NCBI RefSeq assembly: GCF_030406045.1
Contig: NZ_CP128988.1
Span: forward strand, 2,753,001 to 2,817,000
Length of the DNA: 64,000 bases
Direction: 5' to 3'
Source: Thiohalobacter sp. IOR34
GTDB lineage: Bacteria; Pseudomonadota; Gammaproteobacteria; Thiohalobacterales; Thiohalobacteraceae
Each line of letters starts with the position of its first letter. Position 1 is the first letter of the stretch. Both the position numbers and the translations under genes were made by a program. The notes beneath the pieces are model-generated. The model was not told the origin of the DNA and ran no database searches. It saw only the letters and a program-made list of their open reading frames with translations. Shown here piece after piece: positions 2,917 to 42,183 of the stretch.

Positions 2917-3606
2917 ATGAAACTCACCGACGAACTCCGGCAGCGCATGCGCCGCACCTATCTGTTCTCGGCCTTCGACGACCGCGAACTGGAACGGGTG
3001 TTCGCCACCGCTCACGAGATCCACCTCGAGGAAGGCGAGAACCTGTTCGAGTACGGCCAGGAGGCGGACCGCTTCTTCCTGTTGCTGGAAGGCCAGGTCA
3101 AGCTCTACCGGCTGTCCGAGGAGGGCGACGAGAAGGTCATCGAGCTGATCAAGCCGGGCCATACCTTTGCCGAGGCGGTGATGTTCCTCTCCGCCAAGGT
3201 CTACCCGGTAAGCGTCGATGCGGTGCTGCCGAGCCGGCTGCTGTCCTTCTCCAACCAGACCTTCCTCGCCACGCTGCACGATTCGGTCGACGTCTGCCTG
3301 CGGATGATGGCCAACATGAGCCAGCGCCTGCACCGCCATCTGAACGAGATCGACAGCCTGACGCTACACAACGCCACCTACCGGCTGGTCAACTACCTGC
3401 TCAACGAGCTGCCGGATGACGGCCAGGATGCGGTGGAGATCATGCTCTCCACCCCCAAGCACGTCATTGCCTCGCGGCTGTCGATCAAGCCGGAGACCTT
3501 TTCCCGCATCCTCACCCGGCTGTCACGAGACGGCCTGCTCACGGTTCACGGCACCAGCATCGTGCTCAACGACGTGGAAGGACTGCGCGAACTGGTGACG
3601 ATTTGA
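2917..3606 (+). CDS. Crp/Fnr-family transcriptional regulator, DNR-like
   Basis: A cytoplasmic regulator of 229 residues. Residues 1-125 form a cyclic-nucleotide-type beta-barrel (GENLFEYGQEADRFFLLLEG), followed by a dimerisation helix and a winged-helix domain with the recognition helix in ASRLSIKPETFSRILTRLS. The N-terminal Cys cluster of oxygen-sensing FNR/ANR is absent. This and the SIKPETFSR helix resemble the DNR branch, which senses nitric oxide through heme and binds TTGAT-N4-ATCAA sites. Such sites occur before moaA and napF in this window, so it may control them (inference). The ATG at 2917 is chosen because an in-frame TTG (2863) and ATG (2884) add only non-conserved residues. Confidence 0.85.
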   Translation: MKLTDELRQRMRRTYLFSAFDDRELERVFATAHEIHLEEGENLFEYGQEADRFFLLLEGQVKLYRLSEEGDEKVIELIKPGHTFAEAVMFLSAKVYPVSVDAVLPSRLLSFSNQTFLATLHDSVDVCLRMMANMSQRLHRHLNEIDSLTLHNATYRLVNYLLNELPDDGQDAVEIMLSTPKHVIASRLSIKPETFSRILTRLSRDGLLTVHGTSIVLNDVEGLRELVTI

Positions 3607-22781: not shown

Positions 22782-22827
22782 TTCTTACAGTCCTCTTCAG
22801 AAATTCCAGATAATTAGGGTGTTGGGT

Positions 22828-23295
22828 TCAGAGACGGATCAGCTCGCTGCGATCGCCAGCACGGAAACCGTTTTCTTCGTTGAAGAAGCCGATCTCCTCG
22901 ATCTTGCTCATGTCGGCAGCCGGCTTGCCCGCGTACGGATCGATGGAACCTTCCGGGGTGGTGCGGATCGGGAACTTGAAGCGCTTCAGCGTACCGTTGC
23001 GGAACTTGATGGTCCACATGATGGAGTCGGAACCACGCAGCGGCTGCACGGAACCGCCCAGCGGCACGATGTCGGCGTAGTGACGTGCCTCGATGGCCTG
23101 CTGCGGGCAGATCTTGACGCAGGAATAGCACTCCCAGCACTGATCGGGTTCCTGGTTGAAGGCCCTCATGGCATGACCGGTCTCGGAGCCGTCCTTGTCC
23201 AGCTTCATCAGGTCATGCGGGCAGATATACATGCAGGCCGTCTTGTCCTGACCCTTGCAACCATCGCACTTTTCGGTACGCACATATGTTGGCAT
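22828..23295 (-). CDS. aprB: Adenylylsulfate (APS) reductase, beta subunit
   Basis: Electron-transfer subunit of APS reductase, 155 residues. Two [4Fe-4S] clusters are bound by CDGCKGQDKTACMYICP (residues 10-26) and CWECYSCVKICP (about 53-64), followed by a C-terminal tail that wraps the alpha subunit. A GGAGAG ribosome site precedes the ATG. It is first in the aprBA operon, divergent from soeABC across a 771-base region. Confidence 0.98.
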   Translation of the reverse strand: MPTYVRTEKCDGCKGQDKTACMYICPHDLMKLDKDGSETGHAMRAFNQEPDQCWECYSCVKICPQQAIEARHYADIVPLGGSVQPLRGSDSIMWTIKFRNGTLKRFKFPIRTTPEGSIDPYAGKPAADMSKIEEIGFFNEENGFRAGDRSELIRL

Positions 23296-24066: not shown

Positions 24067-26982
24067 ATGCGCAAATCCACCCCTCTGCACGACCCGCTCG
24101 ACCGCTCGCTGGACGAGGCGGCACGCATCGAGGTCAAGAACACGACCTGCTACATGTGCGCCTGCCGCTGTGGCATCCGCGTCACCCTGCGCGACGGCGA
24201 GGTGCGCTACATCCAGGGCAACCCGGAACACCCCCTTAATAAAGGTGTGATCTGCGCCAAGGGCGCCTCAGGGATCATGAAGCAATACTCCCCGGCACGG
24301 CTCGGCACGCCGCTCAGGCGCAAGCCCGGCAGCGAGCGCGGCGCAGCCGAGTTCGAGCCGATCACCTGGGACGAGGCCTTCCAGATCATGGAGGAACGCC
24401 TCGGCCGCATCCGCCAGACCGACCCCAGGCAATTCGCGCTGTTTACCGGCCGCGACCAGATGCAGGCCCTGACCGGCCTGTTCGCCAAGCAGTTCGGCAC
24501 CCCGAACTACGCGGCCCACGGCGGTTTCTGCTCGGTCAACATGGCGGCCGGCATGATCTACACCATCGGTGGCTCCTTCTGGGAATTCGGCGGACCGGAC
24601 CTGGACCGCGCCAAGCTGTTCGTGATGATCGGCACCGCCGAGGATCACCACTCCAATCCGATGAAGATCGCGCTGTCCAAGTTCAAGCGCCAGGGCGGCA
24701 AGTTCATCTCCATCAACCCGGTGCGCACCGGCTATTCCGCCATCGCCGACGAATGGGTGCCGATCCGCCCCGGCACCGATGGCGCCCTGCTGCTGGCGCT
24801 GATCCACGAGATCATCAAGCAGGGCCTGTACGACCGCGACTTCCTGATCCAGTACAGCAACTCGGCGCAGCTGGTGAACATGGACGAGGCGAGCACCGAA
24901 TACGGCATGTTCGTGCGCTTCGAGGTGCCGCCGGAGGAAGGCTGTTTCGACCCGCAGAACAAGCTGTGGTGGGACCGCGAGCTGAACAAGCCGATCTCCA
25001 CCCACACCCCCGGCGCCGACCCCTACCTGCTCGGCGAGTTCCGCCTCGACGACGGCACGCCGGTGAAGCCGGCCTTCCAGCTGCTGGTCGAGCAGGTCGA
25101 GAACTACACCCCGGAGTGGGCCAGCGAGATCACCGGCATCCCGGTGGAGACCATCCGCCGCCTGGCCTACGAGATGGGCGTCACCGCCCGCGACCAGAAG
25201 ATCGAGCTGCCGATCGCCTGGACCGACGTCTGGGGCAACGAGCACGAGTCCATCACCGGCGCCCCGGTCGCCTTCCACGCCATGCGCGGCCTGGCGGCCC
25301 ACTCCAACGGTTTCCAGACCATCCGCGCCCTGTCGATCCTGATGTCCATCCTCGGCACCATCGACCGGCCTGGCGGCTTCCGTCACAAGCCCCCCTTCCC
25401 GCGGCCCATCCCGCCCTGTGCCAAGACCCCCACCGGGCCGGAGGGCGTGCAGCCCGACACGCCGCTGGCCGGCATGCCGCTCGGCTGGCCGGCCGACCCG
25501 GACGACCTGTTCGTGGACGACGAGGGCCAGCCGGTACGCCTCGACAAGGCCTTCTCCTGGGAGTACCCGCTGTCGGTGCACGGCCTGATGCACAACGCCA
25601 TCACCAACGCCTGGCGCGGCGACCCCTACAGGATCGACACCCTGATGATCTTCATGGCCAACATGGCCTGGAACTCGGCGATGAACACCACCGAGATCCG
25701 CAAGATGCTCAACGACCGGGACGAGAACGGCGACTACAAGATCCCCTTCCTGATCGTCGCCGATGCCTTCCAGTCGGAGATGGTGGCCTACGCCGACCTG
25801 GTGCTGCCGGACACCACCTACCTGGAACGGCACGACGTGATGTCCATGCTCGACCGGCCGATCTCCGAGTTCGACGGCCCGGTGGACTCGGTGCGCATCC
25901 CGGTGCTGCCGCCCAGTGGCGAGTGCAAGCCCTTCCAGGAGGTGCTGATCGAGCTGGGCTCGCGCCTCGGGCTGCCGGCCTTCGTCAACGAGGACGGTTC
26001 ACGCAAGTTCCGCGACTATCCGGACTTCATCGTCAACTTCGAGACCGAGCCGGGTTCCGGCATCGGCTTCCTGGCCGGCTGGCGCGGCAAGGGTGGCGAG
26101 AAGTTCATGAAGGGCGAGCCCAACCCCAAGCAGTGGGAGATGTACGAGAAGAACAACTGCGTCTTCCATTACGAGCTGCCCAAGTCCTACCAGTACATGC
26201 GCAACTGGAACCAGGGCTATCTGGAGTGGGCGCAGAACCACCGCCTGACGCGCTACGCGGAGCCGATCCTGATCCACGTCTACTCCGAGGTGCTGCAGAA
26301 ATTCCGCCTCGCCGCCCAGGGCAAGAGCTTCGGCAAGCAGCCGCCGGATCATCTGCGCGCACGCATCGAGACCTACTTCGATCCGCTGCCCTTCTATCAC
26401 GAGCCGCTGGAGACCACCCGCTCGGACCTGCACCGCTATCCGCTGAATGCCGTCACCCAGCGGCCGATGGCCATGTATCACTCCTGGGATTCGCAGAACG
26501 CCTGGCTGCGGCAGATCCATACCTACAATTTCCTGTACGTCAATCCGCAGACCGCTCGCGCCGCCGGCATCGGCGACGGCGAATGGATGTGGGTCGAATC
26601 CATGCACGGCAAGGTGCGCTGCCTGTGCCGCTATTCCGAGGCCACCGAACCCTTCACGGTGTGGACCTGGAACGCCATCGGCAAGGCCGCCGGCGCCTGG
26701 GGACTGGACCCGGCCGCCAACGAGGCGCGCAAGGGCTTTCTGCTCAATCACCTGATCAGCGAGGAGCTGCCGCCCGGCCAGGACGGCGAACACCTGTCCA
26801 ACTCCGACCCGGTCACCGGCCAGGCCGGCTGGTACGACGTGCGGGTGCGCATCTACCCTCTCCAGCCGGGCGAGGCCGAGGTCAGCCATCCGCAGTTCGA
26901 CCCCATGCCGACGCTTCCCGGCCAGAAACCGCACCGCGGCAACTGGCTGGCCTGGTTCGCCGGGCGCATGAAGCGCAAATGA
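24067..26982 (+). CDS. soeA: Cytoplasmic sulfite dehydrogenase, molybdopterin subunit SoeA
   Basis: Large catalytic subunit (971 residues) of the membrane-bound, cytoplasm-facing sulfite-oxidising complex SoeABC. It belongs to the DMSO reductase family: [4Fe-4S] ligands are Cys28, Cys31, Cys35 and Cys63 (CYMCACRC and VICAKG), and the bis-MGD domain follows (GGFCSVNMAAG, NPVRTGYSAIADEW). There is no Tat signal, as expected for SoeA and unlike periplasmic PsrA/PhsA relatives. The ATG at 24067 is preferred over a TTG at 24022, which sits in the palindrome. Sulfite specificity rests on the soeABC order and sulfur-oxidation context. Confidence 0.92.
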   Translation: MRKSTPLHDPLDRSLDEAARIEVKNTTCYMCACRCGIRVTLRDGEVRYIQGNPEHPLNKGVICAKGASGIMKQYSPARLGTPLRRKPGSERGAAEFEPITWDEAFQIMEERLGRIRQTDPRQFALFTGRDQMQALTGLFAKQFGTPNYAAHGGFCSVNMAAGMIYTIGGSFWEFGGPDLDRAKLFVMIGTAEDHHSNPMKIALSKFKRQGGKFISINPVRTGYSAIADEWVPIRPGTDGALLLALIHEIIKQGLYDRDFLIQYSNSAQLVNMDEASTEYGMFVRFEVPPEEGCFDPQNKLWWDRELNKPISTHTPGADPYLLGEFRLDDGTPVKPAFQLLVEQVENYTPEWASEITGIPVETIRRLAYEMGVTARDQKIELPIAWTDVWGNEHESITGAPVAFHAMRGLAAHSNGFQTIRALSILMSILGTIDRPGGFRHKPPFPRPIPPCAKTPTGPEGVQPDTPLAGMPLGWPADPDDLFVDDEGQPVRLDKAFSWEYPLSVHGLMHNAITNAWRGDPYRIDTLMIFMANMAWNSAMNTTEIRKMLNDRDENGDYKIPFLIVADAFQSEMVAYADLVLPDTTYLERHDVMSMLDRPISEFDGPVDSVRIPVLPPSGECKPFQEVLIELGSRLGLPAFVNEDGSRKFRDYPDFIVNFETEPGSGIGFLAGWRGKGGEKFMKGEPNPKQWEMYEKNNCVFHYELPKSYQYMRNWNQGYLEWAQNHRLTRYAEPILIHVYSEVLQKFRLAAQGKSFGKQPPDHLRARIETYFDPLPFYHEPLETTRSDLHRYPLNAVTQRPMAMYHSWDSQNAWLRQIHTYNFLYVNPQTARAAGIGDGEWMWVESMHGKVRCLCRYSEATEPFTVWTWNAIGKAAGAWGLDPAANEARKGFLLNHLISEELPPGQDGEHLSNSDPVTGQAGWYDVRVRIYPLQPGEAEVSHPQFDPMPTLPGQKPHRGNWLAWFAGRMKRK

Positions 26983-27022
26983 CGCACCCGCTGACGCTCA
27001 ACCGAATCTCAGGTAGACATCC

Positions 27023-27754
27023 ATGACCCAACTCGCCCTGGTAATCGATCTCAACGTCTGCGTCGGCTGCCACGCCTGCGTGACCAGCTGCAAGGAATGG
27101 AACACCTCGGGCACGGCCGGGCCGCTGCCCGACCAGCGCCCCTATGGGGAGGACCCGAGCGGCACCTTCTTCAACCGGGTGCAGACCTTCGAGGTCGGCT
27201 GCTTCCCGCACACGGAGACGGTGCACTTCCCGAAGAGCTGCCTGCACTGCGAGGACGCGCCCTGCGTGCCGGTCTGTCCCACGGGCGCCAGCTACAAGCG
27301 GGTCGAGGACGGCATCGTGCTGGTCGACTACGACAAGTGCATCGGCTGCAAGTACTGCTCCTGGGCCTGCCCCTACGGCGCCCGCGAGCTGGACGAGCAG
27401 CAGAAGGTGATGAAGAAATGCACGCTGTGCGTGGACCGCATCTACAACGAGGACTTCCCGGAGGCGGAGCGCAAGCCGGCCTGCGTGCTGGCCTGCCCGA
27501 CCAGCGCCCGGCTGTTCGGTGACGTGCACGATCCGGATTCCGAGGTCTCGGTGGCGATCCGCGAGAACGGCGGCTATCAGCTGATGCCCGAATGGGGCAC
27601 CCGCCCGGCCAACCACTATCTGCCGCGGCGCAAGACCCGTATCCAGATCCACGAGGACGAGCTGGAGCGGATCGACAACCCGCTGAAGTACGAAAAGCAG
27701 CACCCGGAGCGGATCATCGAGGAACCGACCCTGGACGACATCACCAGCTGGTAA
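27023..27754 (+). CDS. soeB: Sulfite dehydrogenase iron-sulfur subunit SoeB
   Basis: Electron-transfer subunit of 243 residues with four cysteine groups for [4Fe-4S] clusters: CVGCHACVTSCKEW (residues 13-26), CLHCEDAPCVPVCPTG, CIGCKYCSWACPYGAR and CTLCVDRI with CVLACPTSAR. It carries electrons from SoeA to the membrane subunit SoeC. It begins 40 bases after soeA; the intergenic part has a weak AGGTAGAC ribosome site. Confidence 0.95.
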   Translation: MTQLALVIDLNVCVGCHACVTSCKEWNTSGTAGPLPDQRPYGEDPSGTFFNRVQTFEVGCFPHTETVHFPKSCLHCEDAPCVPVCPTGASYKRVEDGIVLVDYDKCIGCKYCSWACPYGARELDEQQKVMKKCTLCVDRIYNEDFPEAERKPACVLACPTSARLFGDVHDPDSEVSVAIRENGGYQLMPEWGTRPANHYLPRRKTRIQIHEDELERIDNPLKYEKQHPERIIEEPTLDDITSW

Positions 27755-27808
27755 CCATCACCCCGCAGAACGCTGCGCGCCCGGCGCGCCATCCTGGAGA
27801 AAGAACGC

Positions 27809-28792
27809 ATGCATCCCGCATTTTCCGTGATCTTCCTGACCACCCTGATCGGTGCCGGCCAGGGCCTGTTCCTGGCCCTGTACACCGGCGAGCTGTACTC
27901 GGCGGTGCGGGTCCTGCCGAGCCAGCCCGGCGCGGACTTCTATGGCAGCGGCAGCCTGCTCGCCCTGGCGCTGCTGGTCGCCGGGCTGGTCGCCTCGCTG
28001 TTCCATCTCGGCCGGCCGGAGCGCGGCTGGCGCGCCGCCGCCCGCTGGCGCACCTCCTGGCTGTCGCGCGAGGTGATCGTGCTGCCGGCCTTCATGGCCA
28101 TGGTCTTCGTCTACGGCCTGATCCACTTCACCGGCTGGGACCCGGTGTTCTTCCACATCGGCCGCCAGGCGGACATCGCCATCGACCTGTCGATCCTGGT
28201 CGGCGCCGTCGCCAGCGTGCTGGCCTTCGCCCTGTTCGTCTGCACCGGCATGATCTATGCCGCCATCAAGTTCCTGCAGGAATGGGCCACGCCGCTGACC
28301 GTCATCAACTATCTGCTGCTCGGCTCGGCCAGCGGCTTCACCCTGGCCACGGCCTATGCCGCCTTCTGCGAACCGGCACTGACGGCCTTCTATGGCGCCT
28401 GGGCCATCATCCTCACCCTCGCCGCCCTGGTCTCGCGCAGCGCCGCGCTGCTGCGCAACCGGCGGCTGCGTCACAAGTCGACGCTGCAGACCGCCATCGG
28501 CATCCGCCACACCCAGATCGTGCAGAAGGCCCAGGGGTCGATGGGCGGCTCCTTCAACACCCGTGAGTACAACCACGGCCGCTCGCCCAGTTTTCTCACC
28601 TCGATGATGTGGATCTCGCTGCTGATGGCCTTCGGCGTGCCGCTGCTGCTGCTGGCCATCGGCCTGACCCCGCCGGCGCCGCTGGTGCTGACCTTCGCCT
28701 TCCTGTTCCAGTACCTGGGGCTGCTCGCCGAACGCTGGCTGTTCTTCGCCCAGGCGCGGCATCCGCAGAACCTCTACTACCAGACCGTGTAG
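27809..28792 (+). CDS. soeC: Sulfite dehydrogenase membrane anchor SoeC
   Basis: DmsC/NrfD-like integral membrane subunit of 327 residues that passes electrons to quinone. About eight hydrophobic segments are visible, starting with FSVIFLTTLIGAGQGLFLALY, then LLALALLVAGLVASLFHLGR, VIVLPAFMAMVFVYGLI and so on to LVLTFAFLFQYLGLLAERWLF. The HLGRPERGWRA loop is a DmsC-family hallmark. GGAGAAAGAACGC precedes the ATG. It completes soeABC, 54 bases after soeB. Confidence 0.93.
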   Translation: MHPAFSVIFLTTLIGAGQGLFLALYTGELYSAVRVLPSQPGADFYGSGSLLALALLVAGLVASLFHLGRPERGWRAAARWRTSWLSREVIVLPAFMAMVFVYGLIHFTGWDPVFFHIGRQADIAIDLSILVGAVASVLAFALFVCTGMIYAAIKFLQEWATPLTVINYLLLGSASGFTLATAYAAFCEPALTAFYGAWAIILTLAALVSRSAALLRNRRLRHKSTLQTAIGIRHTQIVQKAQGSMGGSFNTREYNHGRSPSFLTSMMWISLLMAFGVPLLLLAIGLTPPAPLVLTFAFLFQYLGLLAERWLFFAQARHPQNLYYQTV

Positions 28793-31579: not shown

Positions 31580-33670
31580 TCACAGGAACCGGTACTTGAG
31601 ACCCAGGTACAGGGTCCGCTCCAGGCCCGGCGAATACTCGAAGCGCTCCGGCCGACCCCAGGCCGCCGCCTTGTAGCTGGCGGTGGTGGCGTAACGCTGG
31701 TCGGTAAGGTTCATCACCCGCCCATGGAACTCCAGCTGTTTGCTGACCGGGTAGTTGAGACGCAGGTTGAGCAGACTGTGCCCCTTGTACTTGTAGGTGT
31801 TGGCCTGATCCATCCAGTACTCGCCGAGGCGCACCACCTCGAGCTCGACCCGGCCGTCGTTGAGAACGGCGGCCCGGTAGTCCAGGCGTGCACTGGCCAT
31901 CAGCCGCGGTGCCGATTCCATTTCCTTGCCGCTGAAGTCGGTGCTGCCCACCGACCATTCCTCATAGGTGTGCTTGGCGTAGGAGGCGGCGACATCCACA
32001 TTCAGACGCGAACCCAGGGCGCGCGCCAGGCGCAGTTCGACACCGCGATGCAGGGTCTCGCCGGCATTGACCGAGAGCCGCGCCGAGGTGACCGGATCGC
32101 GGTAGGTAAGGATGTCGTCCTTCTTGCTCATGCGGTAGACGGACAGCTCATAGTCGAGGCGGCCCACAGTGCGCCCGCGCACGCCGATCTCGTAGCTGTC
32201 GACCTTGATCGGCTCCAGCTCGACGGTGTTCTCCGCCCGCCCCTGGCGGAACAGCTGGCTCTCGGACGGCACCCGGAAGGCATGGCGGTAGGAGACGAAG
32301 CCGTTGAGCTGCTCATTGAAGCGCCAGGTCGCACCCAGCTTCGGGCTCAGATGATCGAAGTCGACCCTGGTGCTGGCCGGCCGGCGATGGGAGCCGGTGG
32401 TCAGCTCGCCCAGCTTGTTGTCGTAGTCGTATTCGGCATTGTCGTAGCGCAGGCCGGCGGTGACACGCAAGCGCTGCAGCGGCGAGAACTCGACATGGGC
32501 ATAGGGCGAGATGCCGCGGTAGCTGACGTCGTAGTCGTAGATCAAGCTGTCCAGGGTATAGCTGACATAGGTCTTGCCATCGGCGGCCAGGGTCGGGTTG
32601 ATGGCATGCTCGGTACGGCCACCCGGGCTGTAGTCGACGTCCAGGCCGACGATGACCCGGGTCTGCATGGGCTCCAAGTCACGCCGGTACTTGACCAGCA
32701 CGCCGAAGGAATCGTTGCGCGTCTCGTATACCGTGGGATCGTAGCTCAGCGACCAGTTGGGCAGCAGCTCCATCACGTTGTGCCGCAGGTAGGGGGTGAC
32801 GCTCAGCAGGCTGTCACTGGTTTCCTTCTCCCAGGCCACCGAGAAGCGCGCCGCCTGCACCTCGCGATAGGAGATCGGCGTGTAGTTGAGGGTCGGGTTG
32901 TTGTGATAGTCGTCCAGCAGCAGACGCGAGCTGCCGGCGGTCTGCTGGTCGATGTTGGACAGCGCCAGCACCGTCTTCAGGGTGGCGCCGCTGTCGAGGA
33001 AGGCATCCCAGCGCAGGGTGGCGCTCTGCCGGTCGTAGTCGGTGGCATCGCGCCAGCCATCGGTGTGGCTGAGATTGAGATCGGCGCGCACCCCGCCACT
33101 GTCCCAGCCGGTGCCGCCGGAGGCCAGCAGCCGCGCCCAGCCGTGGCCGCCGCCCTCCAGGCCGAGTTCGGCCTCCGGGGCTTCAGGCGCGGGACGGGTC
33201 ATGACATTGATCACGGCACCGATGGCGTCGCTGCCATAGAGCGCCGTGCCCGGCCCCTTCAGCACCTCGACACGGTCCGCCTGGGGCACGTTGACCTCGT
33301 ACAGGGCATTGTGATTGAAGAAGCCGGTGGAACGGGTCGGTATGCCGTCCTCCAGATACAGATACATGGGCTTGGTGGTGATCGGCTGGCGGATCGCGGT
33401 CATGTGGCCCTCGCCATTGGTCACGTTGACATGCACCCCGGGGATGCGCAGCAGCAGCTCGCCGGGATGGGCCGGACGCACCTCGTCGATCACCGCGGCA
33501 TCGACGGCATCGATGGTGGCCGGAATATCGGCCACCGGTACCGCCTCGCGGGTCGCGGTGACCGCGATCTCGGGCAGCGGCTCCGCCGCAGCGCCCGCGA
33601 GAACACCGCCACAGACGCCGGCCGACAGGACCGGGAACAGGACGTATCTGGAAACAGCTTTGTGATTCAT
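31580..33670 (-). CDS. TonB-dependent outer-membrane receptor
   Basis: A 696-residue outer-membrane transporter. A signal peptide covers about residues 1-28 (ending AGAAAEP). A TonB-box-like EIAVTATRE lies at about 34-42, and the plug domain follows (ELLLRIPGVHVNVTNGEG, VEVLKGPGTALYGSDAIGAVINVMTR). The barrel runs to the terminal LYLGLKYRFL, ending in an aromatic/Leu as usual. Substrate cannot be read from sequence; neighbours (tonB upstream, thioredoxin-like and HSCECC beta-propeller proteins downstream) hint at a metal or metal complex. A tandem operator-like repeat lies just before the start. Confidence 0.92.
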   Translation of the reverse strand: MNHKAVSRYVLFPVLSAGVCGGVLAGAAAEPLPEIAVTATREAVPVADIPATIDAVDAAVIDEVRPAHPGELLLRIPGVHVNVTNGEGHMTAIRQPITTKPMYLYLEDGIPTRSTGFFNHNALYEVNVPQADRVEVLKGPGTALYGSDAIGAVINVMTRPAPEAPEAELGLEGGGHGWARLLASGGTGWDSGGVRADLNLSHTDGWRDATDYDRQSATLRWDAFLDSGATLKTVLALSNIDQQTAGSSRLLLDDYHNNPTLNYTPISYREVQAARFSVAWEKETSDSLLSVTPYLRHNVMELLPNWSLSYDPTVYETRNDSFGVLVKYRRDLEPMQTRVIVGLDVDYSPGGRTEHAINPTLAADGKTYVSYTLDSLIYDYDVSYRGISPYAHVEFSPLQRLRVTAGLRYDNAEYDYDNKLGELTTGSHRRPASTRVDFDHLSPKLGATWRFNEQLNGFVSYRHAFRVPSESQLFRQGRAENTVELEPIKVDSYEIGVRGRTVGRLDYELSVYRMSKKDDILTYRDPVTSARLSVNAGETLHRGVELRLARALGSRLNVDVAASYAKHTYEEWSVGSTDFSGKEMESAPRLMASARLDYRAAVLNDGRVELEVVRLGEYWMDQANTYKYKGHSLLNLRLNYPVSKQLEFHGRVMNLTDQRYATTASYKAAAWGRPERFEYSPGLERTLYLGLKYRFL

Positions 33671-33683
33671 CGACTCTACCTTT

Positions 33684-33711
33684 TTGTTTTGAACAACTTG
33701 TTTTAAACAAC
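33684..33711 (-). promoter_or_regulatory. Tandem 14-bp operator-like repeat before the TonB receptor gene
   Basis: Two directly abutting copies, TTGTTTTGAACAAC (33684-33697) and TTGTTTTAAACAAC (33698-33711), differ at one base; each contains a small dyad (TTGTT..AACAA). They lie 14-41 bases upstream of the receptor ATG, where a bound protein would block transcription or initiation. The regulator is unknown. Confidence 0.6.
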
Positions 33712-33735
33712 AGGAAAAAACGTCGAACTCCCTTT

Positions 33736-34443
33736 CTAGTCCTGACGCAATTCGAAGCGCATCCGGTATTCCACCCGCCGGGGGAGGCGCATAGCGGCCG
33801 GCGGCCGCGGCAGGGGCAGGGCCTCCTGCACCGCCTGACGTGCGGCGTTGCGCAACAGACGCGCGCCCCCCGTCAGTTGCAGATCGCGCACCCTGCCATC
33901 GGCGAGCAGTTCGAAGCTCACCTCCACCTCGCCCTCCAGAGCCCGACGTCGCGCGGCACGGGGATAGAACTTGTGGCGCTCGATATGCGCCAGCAAGCGG
34001 GCCAGATAGCTCGTCTCCGCATCGGCCTCGGCAGCCGGCGCCGCGGGCGGCGGCGCTTCAGGCACCGCCGTCGGCCGCTCGACGGGCACCTCCGCCGACC
34101 GTGACGGCTGCGAAACCCGCGGCGGCTGCCTGACCGGCTCGGGCGCGGGGCGCGCGGGCCGCGGCGCCGGCGGCCGATGAGCCCTGGGCCGGGGCTGCGC
34201 AGCGGGTTGCTCCGGCTCGACCGGCCTCGCCCGCGCAACGGCCCGTGGCGCCGCTTCGGGTAGCGGGCGCCGCGGTGCCGGCGGCAGCCACTGCAGGCGG
34301 ATCGACTTCGATTCGGCCGCCGTCCTTGGCACCGGACGGGGGCCGTCCCTGTCCGCCCAGTACCCGTAGACGAACAGATGCAGTGACACCGACAGGACCA
34401 GCGCCCCGGCGAACACGGCCCCTTCATCCAGCTGCCAGCGCAT
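33736..34443 (-). CDS. tonB: TonB-like energy transducer
   Basis: A 235-residue inner-membrane-anchored periplasmic protein. One N-terminal transmembrane helix (about residues 11-29) is followed by a long Pro/Arg/Ala/Glu-rich linker (about 40-140). The C-terminal TonB domain is YLARLLAHIERHKFYPRAAR, GEVEVSFELLADGRVRDLQL and the closing MRFELRQD. It probably powers the receptor encoded 65 bases downstream. The ATG at 34443 (MRWQLDEG) has no clear ribosome site; an in-frame GTG two codons upstream is possible. The longer frame to 34773 overlaps moaA and its promoter and is rejected. Confidence 0.88.
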   Translation of the reverse strand: MRWQLDEGAVFAGALVLSVSLHLFVYGYWADRDGPRPVPRTAAESKSIRLQWLPPAPRRPLPEAAPRAVARARPVEPEQPAAQPRPRAHRPPAPRPARPAPEPVRQPPRVSQPSRSAEVPVERPTAVPEAPPPAAPAAEADAETSYLARLLAHIERHKFYPRAARRRALEGEVEVSFELLADGRVRDLQLTGGARLLRNAARQAVQEALPLPRPPAAMRLPRRVEYRMRFELRQD

Positions 34444-34690
34444 GGACACGGTAACAACGGCTCTCCTCGGCCCGGCCCTTGCCGCCGGGTGAGCCCCTCT
34501 GCAGCAAGAAGGGGGCCAGACTTTATTTCCTGCCAAATCAGCAGGATAGAAGGCTCGCGTCAGAGAAGGGCAGGGCATATGCCCCAGGCTTGCGGGCAAA
34601 AGCCGCAGCCAGGATGGGGGACCGATGGGCGGAGACTGGACCCGTCGGCCCTCGGCACCCATAATCCAGAGACGGGGCAGCGGGGCGGAT
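34444..34690. other. Divergent tonB / moaA intergenic region
   Basis: Non-coding. It contains a small dyad CCTGC-N7-GCAGG (34529-34545). The moaA control elements begin at 34691. I looked for cobalamin and Moco riboswitch cores and could not support either. Confidence 0.5.
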
Positions 34691-34704
34691 TTGATCTCGA
34701 TCAA
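34691..34704 (+). promoter_or_regulatory. Perfect FNR/DNR box upstream of moaA
   Basis: TTGATCTCGATCAA is an exact TTGAT-N4-ATCAA site. A -10-like TATGCT (34728-34733) lies 33 bases downstream centre-to-centre, placing the box near -41.5 of the predicted start, the class II activation position. This suggests that Moco synthesis is induced under low oxygen or nitric oxide. Confidence 0.82.
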
Positions 34705-34763
34705 GGGGTCGGCCGGCAGCCAGGGGGTATGCTCTGACCTGGATTCGGGGGAATGCAGCAGGC

Positions 34764-35750
34764 ATGACGACACAACTCACAGACCGACTGGGTCGAAAGA
34801 TCGAATACCTGCGCCTGTCCGTCACCGACCGTTGCGATCTGCGCTGCTTCTACTGCCTGCCCAAGGGCTTCCGCGACTTCGAGCCACCGGACGAGTGGCT
34901 CGACTTCGACGAGCTGGAACGGGTGATCGCTGCCTTCGCACGCCTCGGTACCCACCGGGTCCGTCTCACCGGTGGCGAACCCCTGGTGCGCAGGAATCTG
35001 CCCGAGCTGGCGGCACGCCTCGCCCGGCTGCCGGGCATCGACGACCTATCCCTCTCCACCAACGCCACCCGCATGGCCCGCCATGCCAGCGAGCTGCGCG
35101 CCGCCGGCGTGTCACGCATCAACGTCAGCCTCGATTCCCTGCAAGCGGAACGCTTCCGCGAGATCACCGGTGGCGGCAAACTGGAGAAGGTCATCAACGG
35201 CCTGCGGGCCGCGCGTGATGCCGGCTTCGCCCCGATCAAGATCAACATGGTGGTGATGAAGGGCGTCAACGATGATGAGGTGGAGGCCATGGTCGAGTTC
35301 TGCATCGAGCACGGCTTCACCCTGCGCTTCATCGAGACCATGCCGGTGGGTGACACTGGGCGCCGCGCCAGCGACCATTTCCTCGATCTGCAGGAGGTGA
35401 AGGCACGCCTCGCCCGCCGCTTCGAGCTGCTGCCGGGGATGATGCCGGGCGGCGGACCCGCGCGCTATGTGCAGGTGGCCGGCAGCGACTTGCGCATCGG
35501 CTTCATCACCCCCATGTCCCAGCATTTCTGTGACACCTGCAACCGGGTGCGGCTGGCCGCCGACGGCACCCTCTACATGTGCCTCGGTCAGAGCCACAGC
35601 TTCGCGCTGCGGCCGCTGCTGCGCGGCGGCGCCTCCGATGCCGAGCTGGAGGCGGCCATCCGCCAGGCCATCGACATGAAACCGGAACGCCACGAATTCA
35701 TCGACAAGCCCGGCCAGGTGATCCGCTTCATGTCGATGACCGGCGGCTGA
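34764..35750 (+). CDS. moaA: GTP 3',8-cyclase
   Basis: Radical SAM enzyme starting molybdenum cofactor synthesis by converting GTP to 3',8-cH2GTP. The N-terminal [4Fe-4S] motif is CDLRCFYCLP (CxxxCxxC), the SAM-binding stretch is RLTGGEPLVRRNLPEL, and the C-terminal cluster uses CDTCNRVRLAADGTLYMC. The 328-residue length is normal. The last residues (MSMTGG) end in the GG tail needed for activity. It is single, with no other moa gene nearby, but lies by the nap operon and has an FNR/DNR box. Confidence 0.97.
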   Translation: MTTQLTDRLGRKIEYLRLSVTDRCDLRCFYCLPKGFRDFEPPDEWLDFDELERVIAAFARLGTHRVRLTGGEPLVRRNLPELAARLARLPGIDDLSLSTNATRMARHASELRAAGVSRINVSLDSLQAERFREITGGGKLEKVINGLRAARDAGFAPIKINMVVMKGVNDDEVEAMVEFCIEHGFTLRFIETMPVGDTGRRASDHFLDLQEVKARLARRFELLPGMMPGGGPARYVQVAGSDLRIGFITPMSQHFCDTCNRVRLAADGTLYMCLGQSHSFALRPLLRGGASDAELEAAIRQAIDMKPERHEFIDKPGQVIRFMSMTGG

Positions 35751-35922: not shown

Positions 35923-36546
35923 CTACCCGTTGCCGATCACCGCCGTCGGGTTCTCCTCGTGCATGTCCGGCAACTGGTGGGCAATGCCCTTGTGGCAATC
36001 GATACAGGTCTTGCCTTCCTCCAGACCCTTGGCATGCTGGTTGACGGCACGTCGCCCCTGGTAGGTGAAGTCCATCGACTTGTAGTCGTGGCAGTTGCGG
36101 CATTCGCGCGAATCCGTCTTCTTCATGGTCTCCCAGACGTGACGCGCCAACTCCAGGCGCTTGGCCTCGAACTTCTCGCGTGTGTCGATGGTGCCCAGCA
36201 CCTTGTGCAGCAGCTCGTTGGAAGCCTGAATCTTGCGCACCACCTTGTGGATCCATTCCTTGGGCACATGGCAGTCCGGGCAGGTGGCTCGGACACCGGT
36301 GCGGTTGTTGTAGTGAATGGTGTTCTTGTACTCCTGATAGACGTTGTCCTTCATTTCATGACAGGAGATGCAGAACGTCTCGTTGTTGGTCGCCTCCATG
36401 GCGGTATTGAAACCACCCCAGAAGATGATGCCGGCCACGAAGCCAATCGCCAGGATGCCGCCCAGGGTATAGGTGGCAGAGGGTCGCCGCAGCGCGGACC
36501 ATATCCGGCACAGGAAGCCCTTGTTGTCGCAGTTTGAATCAGCCAT
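35923..36546 (-). CDS. napC: Tetraheme cytochrome c quinol dehydrogenase NapC
   Basis: NapC/NirT-family protein of 207 residues that oxidises quinol and feeds electrons to NapAB. One N-terminal membrane helix (TYTLGGILAIGFVAGIIFWGG) anchors a periplasmic domain with four CxxCH heme sites: CISCH, CPDCH, CRNCH and CIDCH. It is last in the napFDAGHBC operon, 45 bases after napB. Confidence 0.97.
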   Translation of the reverse strand: MADSNCDNKGFLCRIWSALRRPSATYTLGGILAIGFVAGIIFWGGFNTAMEATNNETFCISCHEMKDNVYQEYKNTIHYNNRTGVRATCPDCHVPKEWIHKVVRKIQASNELLHKVLGTIDTREKFEAKRLELARHVWETMKKTDSRECRNCHDYKSMDFTYQGRRAVNQHAKGLEEGKTCIDCHKGIAHQLPDMHEENPTAVIGNG

Positions 36547-36591
36547 GTCTGTTCGCCCTTGTTCAGCCCGTCAGGTGGAATCGCTACACGC

Positions 36592-37038
36592 TCAATGCCC
36601 GGTGAGTGCCCGCACCGGCTCGAAGGTGTTGTCGACCAGCGGCTTGGCGTTGACCTGCGGCACATGGCACTGGGTGCAGAAATAGCGCCGCGCAGAGACA
36701 TTCGCCAATACGTTCTTGTCGCGGTCCTCGAAGTGCGTCTGGCTGATCTTGGTCGCACCGGCCTCCTTGTAGTTGGCCCAGCTATGACAACTCAGGCATT
36801 TATTGAACTTGCGATTGATCTGGTAGCCCTCAATCTTGTGCGGAATCAGCGGCGGCTGCTGCACGTACTCGCGATCGAACACCTCGCCGTCCTTGCGATA
36901 CTGCTTCATGGCCGGCACCTTGGATTCCTCGGTCAGATCCTGCGCCCCGCGCAGGGAGGCAAGTTCAGACACCGCCAGCGACGCGTACCCCCCAAGCGCC
37001 AAGGCAAGACCCAACGCCGTTACAATCGACTTTTTCAT
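36592..37038 (-). CDS. napB: Diheme cytochrome c subunit of periplasmic nitrate reductase
   Basis: Small electron-transfer subunit of NapAB, 148 residues. A cleavable signal peptide ([21 protein letters not shown]) is followed by two heme sites, CLSCH and CTQCH, and the typical AARxYFCTQCHVPQ-like stretch (SARRYFCTQCHVPQVNAKPL). The ATG at 37038 overlaps the napH stop by four bases; the frame is open far upstream but that part is antisense to napH coding in another frame. Confidence 0.96.
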   Translation of the reverse strand: MKKSIVTALGLALALGGYASLAVSELASLRGAQDLTEESKVPAMKQYRKDGEVFDREYVQQPPLIPHKIEGYQINRKFNKCLSCHSWANYKEAGATKISQTHFEDRDKNVLANVSARRYFCTQCHVPQVNAKPLVDNTFEPVRALTGH

Positions 37039-37943
37039 GATAAGACCTCCGTCTTTCCAGACAGCGACAGATGCGCAGATGGTTTGATTCGGTTGTTGAA
37101 TCGGGTTGAAAACTCGAACACGTCCTCGGCACAGACATCGATGCAGCGCCCGCAGTTGGTGCAGTTGGCCGAGAATATCACCGGCCCGACACCCTCGGCG
37201 GCCCCCTTCAGGGCCGGGCGGATAACCTGCGGTTCGGGACAGACCGCAAAGCAGTCCATGCAGTCGTCGCAGGCCTCGCGCCGCGCAGCGCTGACCCGCA
37301 GCAGGCTGTAGCGGCCGAGCAGGCTGTAGAAGGCGCCGACCGGGCACAAATGGCCGCACCAGGCCCGCCGACTGACCAGCAGATCGAGCAGGAAGACGGC
37401 CAGCACCACCAGCCAGGCCAGCCCCATGCCGAAGATCAGGCCGCGGTGCAGCATCGATACCGGATTGACGAACTCCCAGGCGACGCTGCCGGTCAGCGCG
37501 GCCAGCAACAGGGTCATACCGAGGATCCAGTATCGTGCCTGACGTGACAGACGCGAGGCGCCACTGATCCCAAGCCGTTCGCGCAACCAGTGGGCGGCAT
37601 CGGTAACCAGGTTCACCGGACAGACCCAGGCACAGTAGGCACGTCCGCCGACCAGCAGATAGAAGACCAGCACGATCAGCGCACCGATGGCGGCCGACAG
37701 TTCCGGCCAATGCCCGCTAAGCAGCGACTGCAGCAGCACATAGGGATCGGTCAGCGGCAGCACGTCCAGCGTCAGGCTGGAATTGAGATTGCCCTTGACG
37801 ATCCACACCCCGGCCAGGGGCCCGAGCAGGAACAGCGCAAGGATGCCCAGCTGGCTGAGCCGGCGCAGCAGCAGCCACTTGCTGGCTCCCAGGCGTCCCT
37901 TGCGGGCCAGCGCCTCCTGTCCCGGATAAGCCTGCCGCCTCAC
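37035..37943 (-). CDS. napH: Quinol dehydrogenase membrane component NapH
   Basis: Polytopic iron-sulfur protein of 302 residues that works with NapG to deliver quinol electrons to Nap. Four or five membrane segments are visible. The paired cytoplasmic motifs [13 protein letters not shown] and [13 protein letters not shown] (CxxxCP) are present, and two C-terminal [4Fe-4S] sites follow: [14 protein letters not shown] and [14 protein letters not shown]. It overlaps napG and napB by four bases each. Confidence 0.96.
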
Positions 37944-38827
37944 GGCTGCTCCTCCTGCCGGCGGTTGAGCTGCTTCAGGGGATCATCACCGAATGGCGTC
38001 TCCGGCGGCGCGGCCTGCTCATCGTAGATGACCTTGCCGCTCTGATAGTCATAGTGCGCACCCTCCGGCAAGTTGAAGCGCCGCTGGGTATCCGGCGTGA
38101 CCAGACTCCGGCCGGCCTTCTCCTTTTCCTGCCAGCCAAGGCGATAGTGCCGGCCCAGCTCACCCTTGGCCAGGCGCAGCGGGAACACCTTGATCGCGGC
38201 CTGCTCGAGAATGCAGGCCTCCTCGCACTTGCCGCAACCGGTACAGGCGTCGGAATGCACCACCGGGATGAACAGGGCATGGGTGCCGGAGCGCGGATTG
38301 TGGCGCAGCTCCAGGCTGATGGCCTTGCCGCGTACCGGGCAGATGTTGTAACAGACCTCGCAGCGCAGCCCCTGGAAGGCGATGCAAGATTCCTGATCGA
38401 CCAGCACGGCCAGCCCCATACGCGCCTGGTCGATGTCTTCCAGAGCATGATCCAGGGCGCCAGTCGGACAGGCCTTCACGCAGGGGATGTCCTCGCACAT
38501 CTCGCAGGGCACCTCGCGGGCGATGAAGTAGGGCGTGCCGGTGGCCACGGATTCACCCAGCTCGGCCAGGCGCAGGGTATCGTAGGGACAGTCGCGCACG
38601 CACAGGCCACAGCGGATGCAGGCACCGAGAAAATCCGCCTCGGCCAGCGCGCCCGGCGGACGGATGGCCTCTGCCGGCAGCGAGGCTGCCTGCCGCGAAT
38701 AGAGGCCGACCCCCAGACCCAGCAAGGTGACACCGCCCACCGTCCTGGCCAGATCGGCCAGGAAACGGCGGCGGCCAGCCTGCCGCGGCGCACGACGCAC
38801 CTGCTTGGTCCGGGGTTCCGCCATCAC
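37940..38827 (-). CDS. napG: Ferredoxin-type protein NapG
   Basis: Periplasmic iron-sulfur protein of 295 residues. The long N-terminus carries a Tat-like signal ([20 protein letters not shown]). Four [4Fe-4S] cysteine groups follow: [38 protein letters not shown] and [12 protein letters not shown]. It partners NapH. It starts five bases after napA ends and overlaps napH by four bases. Confidence 0.95.
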
Positions 38828-38831
38828 GACC

Positions 38832-41339
38832 TCAGGCCTTCACCACCTTGACCGCACACTTCTTGTAGTCCGTTTCCTTGGACAGCGGGTCGGTGGCATC
38901 CAGGGTGACCTTGTTGATCAGCCGGCCGGCATCGAACCAGGGCACGAAGATCAGCCCCTCCGGCGGCCGGTTGCGGCCGCGGGTCTCGACCCGGGCGACG
39001 ATCTCGCCACGGCGGCTGACCACCTTGGCCGGCAGGCCGCGGCGCAGGCCGCGCTTCTCGGCGTCCTTGGGATGCATGAAGATCACCGCATCGGGGAAGG
39101 CGCGATACAACTCCGGCACGCGGCGGGTCATGGAACCCGAGTGCCAGTGCTCCAGGATGCGGCCGGTGCACAGCCAGAGATCGTACTCGTTGTCGGGACT
39201 CTCCGCGGGCGGCTCATAGGGCGCAAAGATGATGTTCGCCCTGCCGTCCGGCTTGCCGTAGAACTGAACCTCCTTGCCTGCCTCCACGTAGGGATCGTAA
39301 CCCTCGCGATAACGCCACAGGGTCTCCTTGCCGTTGACCACCGGCCAGCGCATGCCGCGCACCCTGTGGTACTGATCGAACTCGCCGAGGTCGTGGCCCT
39401 TCTTCGGCCCCTGGGTGCCGAAGATGCGGTATTCCTCGAACAGCCCCTTCTGGACATAGAAGCCGAAGTGCTCCATCTCGTCGTTGTCGTAGACGTTGCC
39501 CCGCTCATCGGTAACGGTCTGCTTGGGATACTTGTCCACCTGGCCGTTGCGATAGAGGATGTCGTACAGGGTCTTGCCGCGGTATTCCGGCTTCTTCGCC
39601 AGCAGCTCCTCGGGCCAGACCTCCTCGACCTTGAAGCGCTTGGAGAACTCCATGATCTGCCACAGATCGGACTTGGCCTCGCCCGGCGCCCTGACCTGCT
39701 GACGCCAGAACTGGGTGCGCCGCTCGGCATTGCCATAGGCGCCTTCCTTCTCGGTCCACATGGCGGTGGGCAGGATCAGGTCCGCCGCCTGCGCGGTGAC
39801 CGTCGGATAGGGATCGGAGACGACGATGAAGTTCTCCGGATTGCGATAGCCCGGATAGCTCTCCTCGTTCATGTTGGCCGCCGCCTGCATGTTGTTGTTG
39901 CACATCACCCAGTAGGCGTTGAGCTTGCCGTCCTTGAGCATGCGGTTCTGCAGCACGGCATGGTAGCCCGGCTTGGGCGGGATGGTACCCTCCGGCAGCT
40001 TCCAGACCTTCTCGGCGAAGTCGCGGTGCGCCTTCTTCTTCACCACCAGGTCCGCCGGCAGGCGGTGGGCGAAGGTGCCGACCTCACGCGCCGTGCCACA
40101 GGCCGAGGGCTGACCGGTCAGCGAGAAGGGGCTGTTGCCGGGCTCGGAGATCTTGCCCATCAGCAGATGCACGTTGTAGAGCAGGCCATTGACCCAGACG
40201 CCACGGGTGTGCTGGTTGAAACCCATGGTCCAGAAGGAGGTCACCTTCCTGTTCGGATCGGCATAGACCTTGGCCAGCCGCTCCAGCTGGTCGGCCGGCA
40301 CGCCGGACAACTCGGCGGCATACTCCAGGGTATAGGGCTCGACCGACTTGGCATATTCCTCGAAGCTGATCTTGGAGAGCTTGCCCTTGCCCGGATTCTT
40401 GGCCTTCTGCTCCAGCGGATGCTCGGGCCGCAGGCCGTAGCCGATGTCGGTCGGCGTCTTGGTGAAGTTGACGTGCTTGTCGATGAAGTCCTTGTTGTAG
40501 GCCTTGTTCTGGATGATGTAGTTGGCGATGTAGTTGAGGATCGCCAGATCGGTCTGCGGCCTGAACACCATGCCGTTGTCGGCCAGCTCGAAGCAGCGGT
40601 GCTCGTAGGTGGAGAGCACGTGCACCTCGCAGCCCTCCCGGGTGAGCCGCGTGTCGGTCAGGCGCGACCAGAGGATGGGGTGCATCTCGGCCATGTTCGA
40701 ACCCCAGAGCACGAAGGCATCGGCATTCTCCAGGTCATCGTAGCAACCCATGGGCTCGTCGGCGCCGAAACCACGGATGAAGGCACCCACCGCCGAGGCC
40801 ATGCAGTGCCGGGCATTGGGATCGATGTTGTTGGAACGGAAACCGGCCTTGTACAGCTTGGAGGCGGCATAGCCCTCCCACACCGTCCACTGGCCGGAGC
40901 CGAACATGCCGACCGCGGTCGGCCCCTTCTTCTTGATGGCCGCCTTCCACTTTTCGGCCATGACATCGAAGGCCTCGTCCCAGGAGACCGGCTCGAAGTC
41001 GCCGTTCTTGTCGAATTTGCCGTTCTTCTTGCGCAGCAGCGGCTGGGTCAGACGGTCCCTGCCGTACATGATCTTGGACAGGAAATAGCCCTTGATGCAG
41101 TTCAGGCCGCGGTTGACCGGTGCATCCGGGTCACCCTGGGTGGCCACCACCCGGCCGTCGCGGGTACCGACCAGCACACTGCAACCGGTGCCACAGAAAC
41201 GGCACGCCGCCTTGTCCCAGCGAATGAACTCCTTGTTCTTCGGCAGGGCCGTGCTGACGCCGGGCAGGGTGATGCCGGCCGCCGCCGCGGTCGCCGCCAC
41301 GGCATTGGACTTGATGAAGTCACGCCTGGTCAGTTTCAT
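38832..41339 (-). CDS. napA: Periplasmic nitrate reductase catalytic subunit
   Basis: Molybdopterin enzyme reducing nitrate to nitrite in the periplasm, 835 residues as usual. A Tat signal ([17 protein letters not shown]) opens the protein. The [4Fe-4S] ligands are Cys46, Cys49, Cys53 and Cys81 (CRFCGTGC and GLNCIKG). [11 protein letters not shown] contains the Cys expected to bind molybdenum, and [14 protein letters not shown] is a typical Nap stretch. It follows napD by one base. Its Moco need links it to moaA and to the NapD chaperone. Confidence 0.98.
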
Positions 41340-41340
41340 C

Positions 41341-41607
41341 TCAAGCCTCCTGTTCGATGGATTCGTTGATCAGTTCATCATCTTCAAACTGGTGATAGAC
41401 CATGGACGCCGCGATCACACCCGGCAGGTCCTGCATCCGATCCACGGTACTGGCCGTGGCCCGGTCATCGGCCTGCTCGACCGTCACGATCAGACGGCCG
41501 TCCTCGGTCGTGGCGTGGACCTCCACACCGTCCAGCTGTTCTAGGGCTGTCTGCACCAGCGCCACCTTTTCGGGGCGCGTGCGCACCAGCACACCGGATA
41601 TGTTCAT
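41341..41607 (-). CDS. napD: NapA signal-peptide chaperone NapD
   Basis: An 88-residue cytoplasmic chaperone that binds the NapA Tat signal until cofactor insertion is finished. It opens with [20 protein letters not shown] and has the ferredoxin-like betaalphabeta pattern ([18 protein letters not shown]). The ATG at 41607 overlaps the napF stop by four bases. It is easily missed because a longer open frame extends upstream through napF in the wrong frame. Confidence 0.95.
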
Positions 41608-42116
41608 GCCACCGCCTCCTCCGGATTGGTTTCGGGATTGCACACTCGAATGGCGCGTGTCGGGCAGGGTGCGACACAGGCGCCGCAACCGGTACAGGAC
41701 GCATCGTCGATCTGCGGCAGGGCCGAGCCACCGACCACCGGCCGGAAGCGGATGGCCTGCGCCTCGCACAGCTCGCCGCAGGTCCGGCACACCACCCCCT
41801 GCCGGACCAGGCAGTGCGCCTCGATACGGGCGCGCAGCGCCCAGGGTTCAGGCTGTGCCGGCTGCAGCGCACCCGTTCGGCAGGCCTCGACACAGGCGCG
41901 GCAGAAGTTGCATTCGGCGCGCAGGAAATCGACCTCGGGGAAGCCGCCCCGCCCGCTCACCAGGAGGCGCTCGCTGCAGGCCGCAAGACAGTCGCCACAG
42001 CGGGTGCAGCGCTCGACGAAGGCCGCTTCGGGCAGCGCCCAGGGGGGACGCTGCGGGCTGCGGCGCGCCTTGAAGTCGCCGCGCAGAAAATCGAATCGGT
42101 TGATAGCCTTCGCCAT
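41604..42116 (-). CDS. napF: Ferredoxin-type protein NapF
   Basis: Cytoplasmic iron-sulfur protein of 170 residues thought to help mature NapA. Cysteine groups are CTRCGDCLAACSE, CNFCRACVEACRTG and CTGCGACVAPCPTRAI; an additional CRTCGELCEAQAI is only partly of the ferredoxin pattern. It is first in the operon, with a GGAGGTAAG ribosome site and an FNR/DNR box about 55 bases upstream. Confidence 0.95.
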   Translation of the reverse strand: MAKAINRFDFLRGDFKARRSPQRPPWALPEAAFVERCTRCGDCLAACSERLLVSGRGGFPEVDFLRAECNFCRACVEACRTGALQPAQPEPWALRARIEAHCLVRQGVVCRTCGELCEAQAIRFRPVVGGSALPQIDDASCTGCGACVAPCPTRAIRVCNPETNPEEAVA

Positions 42117-42169: not shown

Positions 42170-42183
42170 TTGATATAAGTCAA
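42170..42183 (-). promoter_or_regulatory. FNR/DNR box upstream of napF
   Basis: On the minus strand TTGACTTATATCAA matches TTGAT-N4-ATCAA with one mismatch. A -10-like TATAGG (42149-42154 on the opposite strand) lies about 25 bases downstream centre-to-centre, and napF starts at 42116. The placement is roughly that of an activator site, and the same class of site precedes moaA. Confidence 0.72.

Follow-up and report, generated by a model that had tools for sequence, protein, structure and literature searches.

A candidate FNR-type activator site before moaA, convergent with the nap operon, in Thiohalobacter sp. IOR34

Does a perfect FNR/DNR-type box before moaA place molybdenum cofactor (Moco) synthesis under the same control as nitrate reduction, and which regulator reads it? 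The question is raised by a locus of Thiohalobacter sp. IOR34, whose genome is a single contig of 2.96 Mb (GCF_030406045.1). The window, meaning the whole stretch of DNA analysed, comprises 64,000 nt (NZ_CP128988.1, positions 2,753,001-2,817,000 of the forward strand). Its own genome is labelled G000, the relatives are G001-G094, and L-numbers denote loci. The box, TTGATCTCGATCAA, occupies 34691-34704 on the plus strand, matches TTGAT-N4-ATCAA with 0 mismatches and lies 59 nt before the start of moaA. This gene (34764-35750, plus strand) encodes a GTP 3',8-cyclase of 328 amino acids (TIGR02666, 385.7 bits; cut-off, 284.05), and it is the sole copy in G000 above that cut-off among the matches listed. 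A TonB-dependent receptor gene and an apparent TonB-like gene are found at 31580-34457, divergent from moaA.

Class II activator sites of FNR are centred near -41.5, with about 22 nt between the box and the -10 element. At moaA, a predicted -10 hexamer, TATGCT (34728-34733, plus strand), follows the box by 23 nt and would belong to a box-dependent promoter, P2. This distance agrees with class II placement, with the box centre near -41.5 from a predicted start site. The spacing was examined by scoring the match to TATAAT at each distance after the box in 11 moaA promoters, namely ten with a box and that of G001. The mean match peaks at 22 nt (3.82 of 6) and is at most 2.73 outside spacings of 20-24 nt. 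The six family members alone average 3.67 at 22 nt, and G004, G007, and G090 individually reach only 3 of 6.

Boxes of this type are enriched in the window and in the genome. With up to two mismatches, the window holds 22 matches; dinucleotide shuffles average 7.19, and none of 100 reaches 22. A genome scan, which an earlier note on this DNA had proposed, returned nine perfect boxes and 82 with at most one mismatch, compared with 0 and 5 for a reversed-pattern control. The nine lie near fnr, nirS, norC/norB, nnrS, a dihaem cytochrome and molybdoenzyme cluster, moaA, pdxS, fabA, and the ffh region. These neighbours were named via translation, family matches, and gene order; nirS was assigned through its cytochrome d1 domain, and norC/norB by order and general domains only. 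Anaerobic respiration suits six of the nine; for the three near pdxS, fabA, and ffh, no anaerobic role is evident. There are 73 one-mismatch sites, of which a crude, home-made codon-score gene caller placed 40 inside predicted genes and 26 outside, with seven unclassified (three of them in the window). Because 40 of the 66 classified sites fall within genes, a one-mismatch site alone is weak evidence. Among the 26 outside genes, one precedes a tetrapyrrole methylase gene near nirS and another a hemerythrin gene. In G000 at 2137.6-2146.1 kb (L299), a perfect box precedes a cluster encoding a dihaem cytochrome c, several NapF/G/H-like ferredoxins, and a NapA/Fdh-like molybdoenzyme of 895 amino acids that scores below every curated cut-off shown.

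The nap operon (35923-42116, minus strand) and moaA are convergent neighbours. The operon, all on the minus strand, contains napF (41604-42116; TIGR00402, 136.5 bits; cut-off, 102.2), napD (41341-41607), napA (38832-41339), napG (37940-38827), napH (37035-37943), napB (about 36592-36972), and napC (35923-36546); napD and napB score below their curated cut-offs. Before the napF start at 42116 lies the box TTGACTTATATCAA (42170-42183, minus strand), which has one mismatch and is followed 23 nt downstream by GATAGT, identified by eye. Given the weakness of a single one-mismatch site, the argument for this box rests on conservation. Upstream boxes occur in 9 of 16 napF regions, seven of them perfect, against 0.15 expected from shuffles and 0 for the reversed pattern. 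These regions represent 16 of the 17 napF rows above the cut-off, the one omitted being a second copy in G018. In G094 and G076 (L282 and L279), two boxes about 49-50 nt apart precede napF. The earlier note had described both a perfect box at the class II position before moaA and a one-mismatch site before napF, and both descriptions are accurate.

Four CRP/FNR-family genes in the genome exceed the HTH_Crp_2 (PF13545) cut-off. One lies in the window (2917-3606, plus strand) and encodes a DNR-like regulator of 229 amino acids with cNMP-binding and HTH_Crp_2 domains and the recognition helix PETFSRIL. Among solved structures it matches DNR best (3dkw, E 1.6e-45), with PETFSRI aligned, and its sequence has no N-terminal cysteine cluster, in agreement with the earlier claim of a DNR-like regulator at 2917 without the FNR cysteines. 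Haem-dependent sensing of nitric oxide by this protein is putative. No box with up to two mismatches is present at 2767-2916, before this gene. A MOSC/YiiM-type protein is encoded directly upstream (2086-2766); the MOSC fold is tied to molybdenum cofactor chemistry. The second gene, outside the window at about 141.5-142.3 kb of the genome, encodes FNR, as judged from the cysteine pattern and a structure match. The protein carries C-x2-C-x5-C (ACESCSLHQLC) and an internal cysteine in SVCEIP, both of which align with the FNR structure 9qll (E 3.1e-74). In FNR, the cysteines at those positions are the [4Fe-4S] ligands. A perfect box lies just upstream of the likely fnr start. The FNR recognition helix, VETVSR, and that of the DNR-like protein have E..SR in common, the pattern that reads TTGAT. 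The third protein (gene at 631 kb) has the helix E-V-V-S-R, and the fourth (gene at 378 kb) is CRP-like.

The moaA box is kept in a minority of relatives. A search of 95 genomes (G000 and relatives) gave 75 moaA rows above the TIGR02666 cut-off, and 70 of these, from 64 genomes, entered the upstream test; the five omitted were further copies in G094 and G036 and the rows of G085, G047, and G030. A box with at most one mismatch lies within 160 nt of the model start in 10 of the 70 regions, compared with an expectation of 0.345 from shuffles, 0 from the reversed pattern, and about 0.95 when scaled from the rate inside moaA. Among the titled moaA loci (the best 80 of at least 588), a box lies within 220 nt of moaA in 12, whereas the rate in the remainder of these loci predicts 1.4. 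Within the window's family, G000, G004, G005, G007, and G008 carry such a box, or 5 of the 10 members with moaA; in G005 it stands at one of two moaA copies. G001 has a symmetric TTGAC-N4-GTCAA before moaA, and G010 is without a full moaA. The 60 rows that have no box include those of G002, G003, G006, and G009, which are of the same family and have FNR; G002, G006, and G009 belong to one genus. The moaA box is also present in G053, where it is perfect, and with one mismatch in G093 and G011; all three genomes have FNR and no DNR ortholog at threshold. By MoaA, the nearest cultured relative among the matches listed is Thiohalophilus, a sulfur oxidiser.

Gene neighbourhoods in relatives repeatedly bring moaA together with a regulator gene. 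An fnr-like gene is divergent from moaA in G011, G036, L126, L134, and L149, and a dnr-like gene adjoins moaA divergently in G044, L130, L150, and L173. In G044 (C1, 119466-122473), napF, the dnr-like gene, and moaA stand side by side. These divergent neighbours indicate that moaA is tied to this regulator family beyond the G000 genome. Some boxes beside moaA could serve the regulator gene, and the box between the divergent fnr and moaA in G011 and G036 might serve fnr. The nearest box-like site in both L130 and L150 is TTGAC-N4-GTCAA, which lies not near moaA but close to the dnr start, at a distance of about 100 nt; it is the only site with up to two mismatches in the 700 nt before moaA in each. 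No site with at most one mismatch lies upstream of moaA in L149, and only two-mismatch sites do so in G044. In L125, one of the 12 boxed loci, napA follows moaA on the opposite strand, as in the window. NapA-like genes also adjoin fnr-moaA in L134 and L149.

The presence of each regulator across the 64 genomes bears on the choice between FNR and DNR. Presence was assigned by hand with bit thresholds of about 178 for FNR and 130 for DNR; the FNR cysteines were checked in G000 only, and the FNR of G007 is a fragment at a contig end. A boxed moaA occurs in 10 of the 41 genomes with FNR versus none of the 23 without it (Fisher p 0.010), and in 7 of the 27 with DNR versus 3 of the 37 without (p 0.08). 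When FNR alone is present, the count is 3 of 18; when DNR alone is present, it is 0 of 4. Within the FNR-bearing genomes, the box is found in 7 of 23 with DNR versus 3 of 18 without, a difference that is not significant. With the window's family excluded, the counts become 5 of 31 versus 0 of 23 for FNR (p 0.064) and 2 of 17 versus 3 of 37 for DNR (p 0.64). All these associations are only suggestive, because the counts ignore phylogeny and the genomes of a family are not independent. FNR is nevertheless the likelier activator of moaA, since the box tracks FNR, including in the three genomes that have FNR without a DNR ortholog. The moaA box is thus probably a class II activator site at which FNR would raise moaA in low oxygen alongside nap, a reading drawn from sequence comparison.

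It is unlikely that moaA is activated mainly by the DNR-like protein in response to nitric oxide, with FNR acting only indirectly. Such a role would suit a clear DNR relative that is encoded in the window itself and has a comparable recognition helix; the published DNR motif, CTTGATnnnnATCAAG, is the same box (PMC1274295). Each of the ten other genomes in the window's family also has a DNR relative, and four loci have the dnr-like gene beside and divergent from moaA. However, the box is missing from all four genomes that have DNR without FNR, and in two of those four loci (L130 and L150) the sole site is the one near the dnr start. Moreover, nitrate reductase and its cofactor would be needed before nitrate yields nitric oxide. 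The presence counts over the 64 genomes also make DNR less likely as the sole regulator of moaA. The candidate regulon linking cofactor and enzyme, as the earlier note framed it, thus stands in part. The box common to moaA and nap, the class II spacing, and conservation in some relatives uphold it, whereas DNR as the preferred factor is not supported: a genuine FNR, encoded elsewhere in the genome, had been missed, and among the 64 genomes the moaA box occurs only in those with FNR.

Two other explanations fare worse. That the moaA box is a chance palindrome without function is very improbable; the 60 unboxed rows and the many one-mismatch boxes inside genes speak for chance, but the site is a perfect box at class II spacing, the control scans are near zero, and its position is kept in four further family members, with the symmetric variant in G001. 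Hardly any weight falls on the 631-kb protein as the one that binds the moaA box, since this protein, although one of the four above the PF13545 cut-off and with the E..SR pattern kept, has no FNR-type cysteine cluster, adjoins what reads as a small membrane protein gene rather than one of anaerobic respiration, and has no link to the boxed operons that was found.

Control of moaA by FNR would proceed as follows. In low oxygen, FNR would keep its [4Fe-4S] cluster and dimerise. It would then bind the moaA box near -41.5 and recruit RNA polymerase to the promoter with the -10 element TATGCT. Levels of MoaA, which catalyses the first step of cofactor synthesis, would rise together with nap and the other boxed operons, which include nirS, norC, and the NapA-like molybdoenzyme cluster. 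The DNR-like protein (2917) probably reads the same box and may add to activation by FNR when nitric oxide is present. We infer binding, activation, and the dominance of one regulator from the box, its spacing and conservation, and the matching helices of both proteins.

Other cofactor genes and users place this control in context. No box with up to two mismatches lies in the 1369 nt before the model start of moaC (2642869) or in the 1576 nt before that of moeA (2093576). A box at moaA only, of the three Moco genes examined, suggests that the pathway is controlled at its entry, the first, iron-sulfur-dependent step. A Moco riboswitch was not found in the leader, and the only match in the window at Rfam gathering score is a tRNA. 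A molybdopterin oxidoreductase (24067-26982) is a second user of the single moaA. By sequence reading, it has apparent iron-sulfur and membrane partners and forms a SoeABC-like set (24067-28792); apparent aprAB genes lie close by (20796-23283). Because the single moaA must also serve this oxidoreductase, coupling to nitrate reduction is not the whole story.

A second promoter may exist upstream of the box. One promoter-like pair, P1, TGGACC-17-CATAAT (34637-34665, plus strand), was found there, versus 0.1 in shuffles. Its hexamers and spacing are identical in G008 and absent from the other eight family members scanned. In a tandem arrangement, transcription from P1 would supply the molybdoenzyme at 24067-26982 with cofactor in the presence of air. 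The box lies about 25 nt past the predicted start of P1, and FNR bound there would block that promoter while activating P2. If true, one site would hand the sole moaA from constitutive to oxygen- and nitrogen-oxide-controlled expression. A contrast between box promoters and ordinary sigma-70 promoters, tried on 22 promoters, did not hold overall: sigma-70-like pairs occur in 4 of the 11 that have a box-like site and in 5 of the 11 that lack one. When only pairs near the gene are counted, the figures are 1 of 11 versus 5 of 11, and three of those five are from one genus. The tandem arrangement is unlikely; its odds were lowered slightly on account of this contrast, as P1 itself recurs in G008 only. 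P1, a possible promoter, is the sole less ordinary feature of the locus.

The single-site reading, activation of moaA by FNR, has close parallels. In E. coli, moaA and napF both carry FNR ChIP-seq peaks (PMC3688515). FNR thus occupies the operon that opens Moco synthesis, moaABCDE, as well as that of the periplasmic nitrate reductase, napFDAGHBC; similar occupancy is proposed for Thiohalobacter. The same study saw no FNR-dependent change of either gene in its own minimal medium and lists both, after an earlier study, as FNR-activated in nitrate (PMC3688515). Activation of moaABCDE by FNR is stated in a 2024 paper (PMC10845959). Of ten gamma-proteobacterial genomes compared in a 2007 study, six have conserved candidate Fnr sites before moaABCDE; among the remaining four, three show NarP sites alone and one shows no site (PMC1805755). 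That set consists of Enterobacteriaceae, Pasteurellaceae, and Vibrionaceae, which differ from Thiohalobacter in lineage and operon structure (PMC1805755). Unlike in E. coli, moaA of Thiohalobacter is a separate gene with no moaBCDE behind it, it converges with the neighbouring nap operon, no Moco riboswitch was found in the window, and the genome encodes a DNR relative besides FNR.

The other close parallel is the ANR/DNR cascade of Pseudomonas and Marinobacter, which likewise combines one [4Fe-4S] FNR and one DNR with a common box at denitrification operons (PMC6152468; PMC1274295). The TTGAT-N4-ATCAA box is described as common to DNR and FNR (PMC1274295; PMC6152468). Thiohalobacter departs from this cascade in that the targets include moaA as a separate transcript and the dnr of the window has no upstream box (up to two mismatches). 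In P. aeruginosa, transcripts for Moco synthesis are more abundant in anoxic culture (PMC4731081), and moaA1 lies inside the nar operon (PMC12491237), unlike the separate moaA of Thiohalobacter. No confirmed published case of DNR acting on moaA was found in a search that mostly covered literature outside subscription journals, and no word beginning with 'moa' occurs in the main texts of PMC1274295, PMC6588701, PMC12403760, and PMC5398030. The earlier statement that moaA regulation by a DNR-type factor is not commonly described thus agrees, for DNR, with the literature covered by this search, whereas control of moaA by FNR has been described (PMC3688515; PMC10845959; PMC1805755).

The coupling of cofactor and enzyme is not new, because FNR of E. 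coli already controls moaA and napF. The link between moaA and nap in Thiohalobacter is likely real; it is ordinary, well-supported regulation of a kind already known, here extended to another lineage. The moaA box offers a testable case of FNR and DNR using a common site. If FNR acts as proposed, a single oxygen switch would govern both the cofactor supply and the enzymes that depend on it, in a lineage that is nearest, by MoaA and among the cultured matches listed, to Thiohalophilus.
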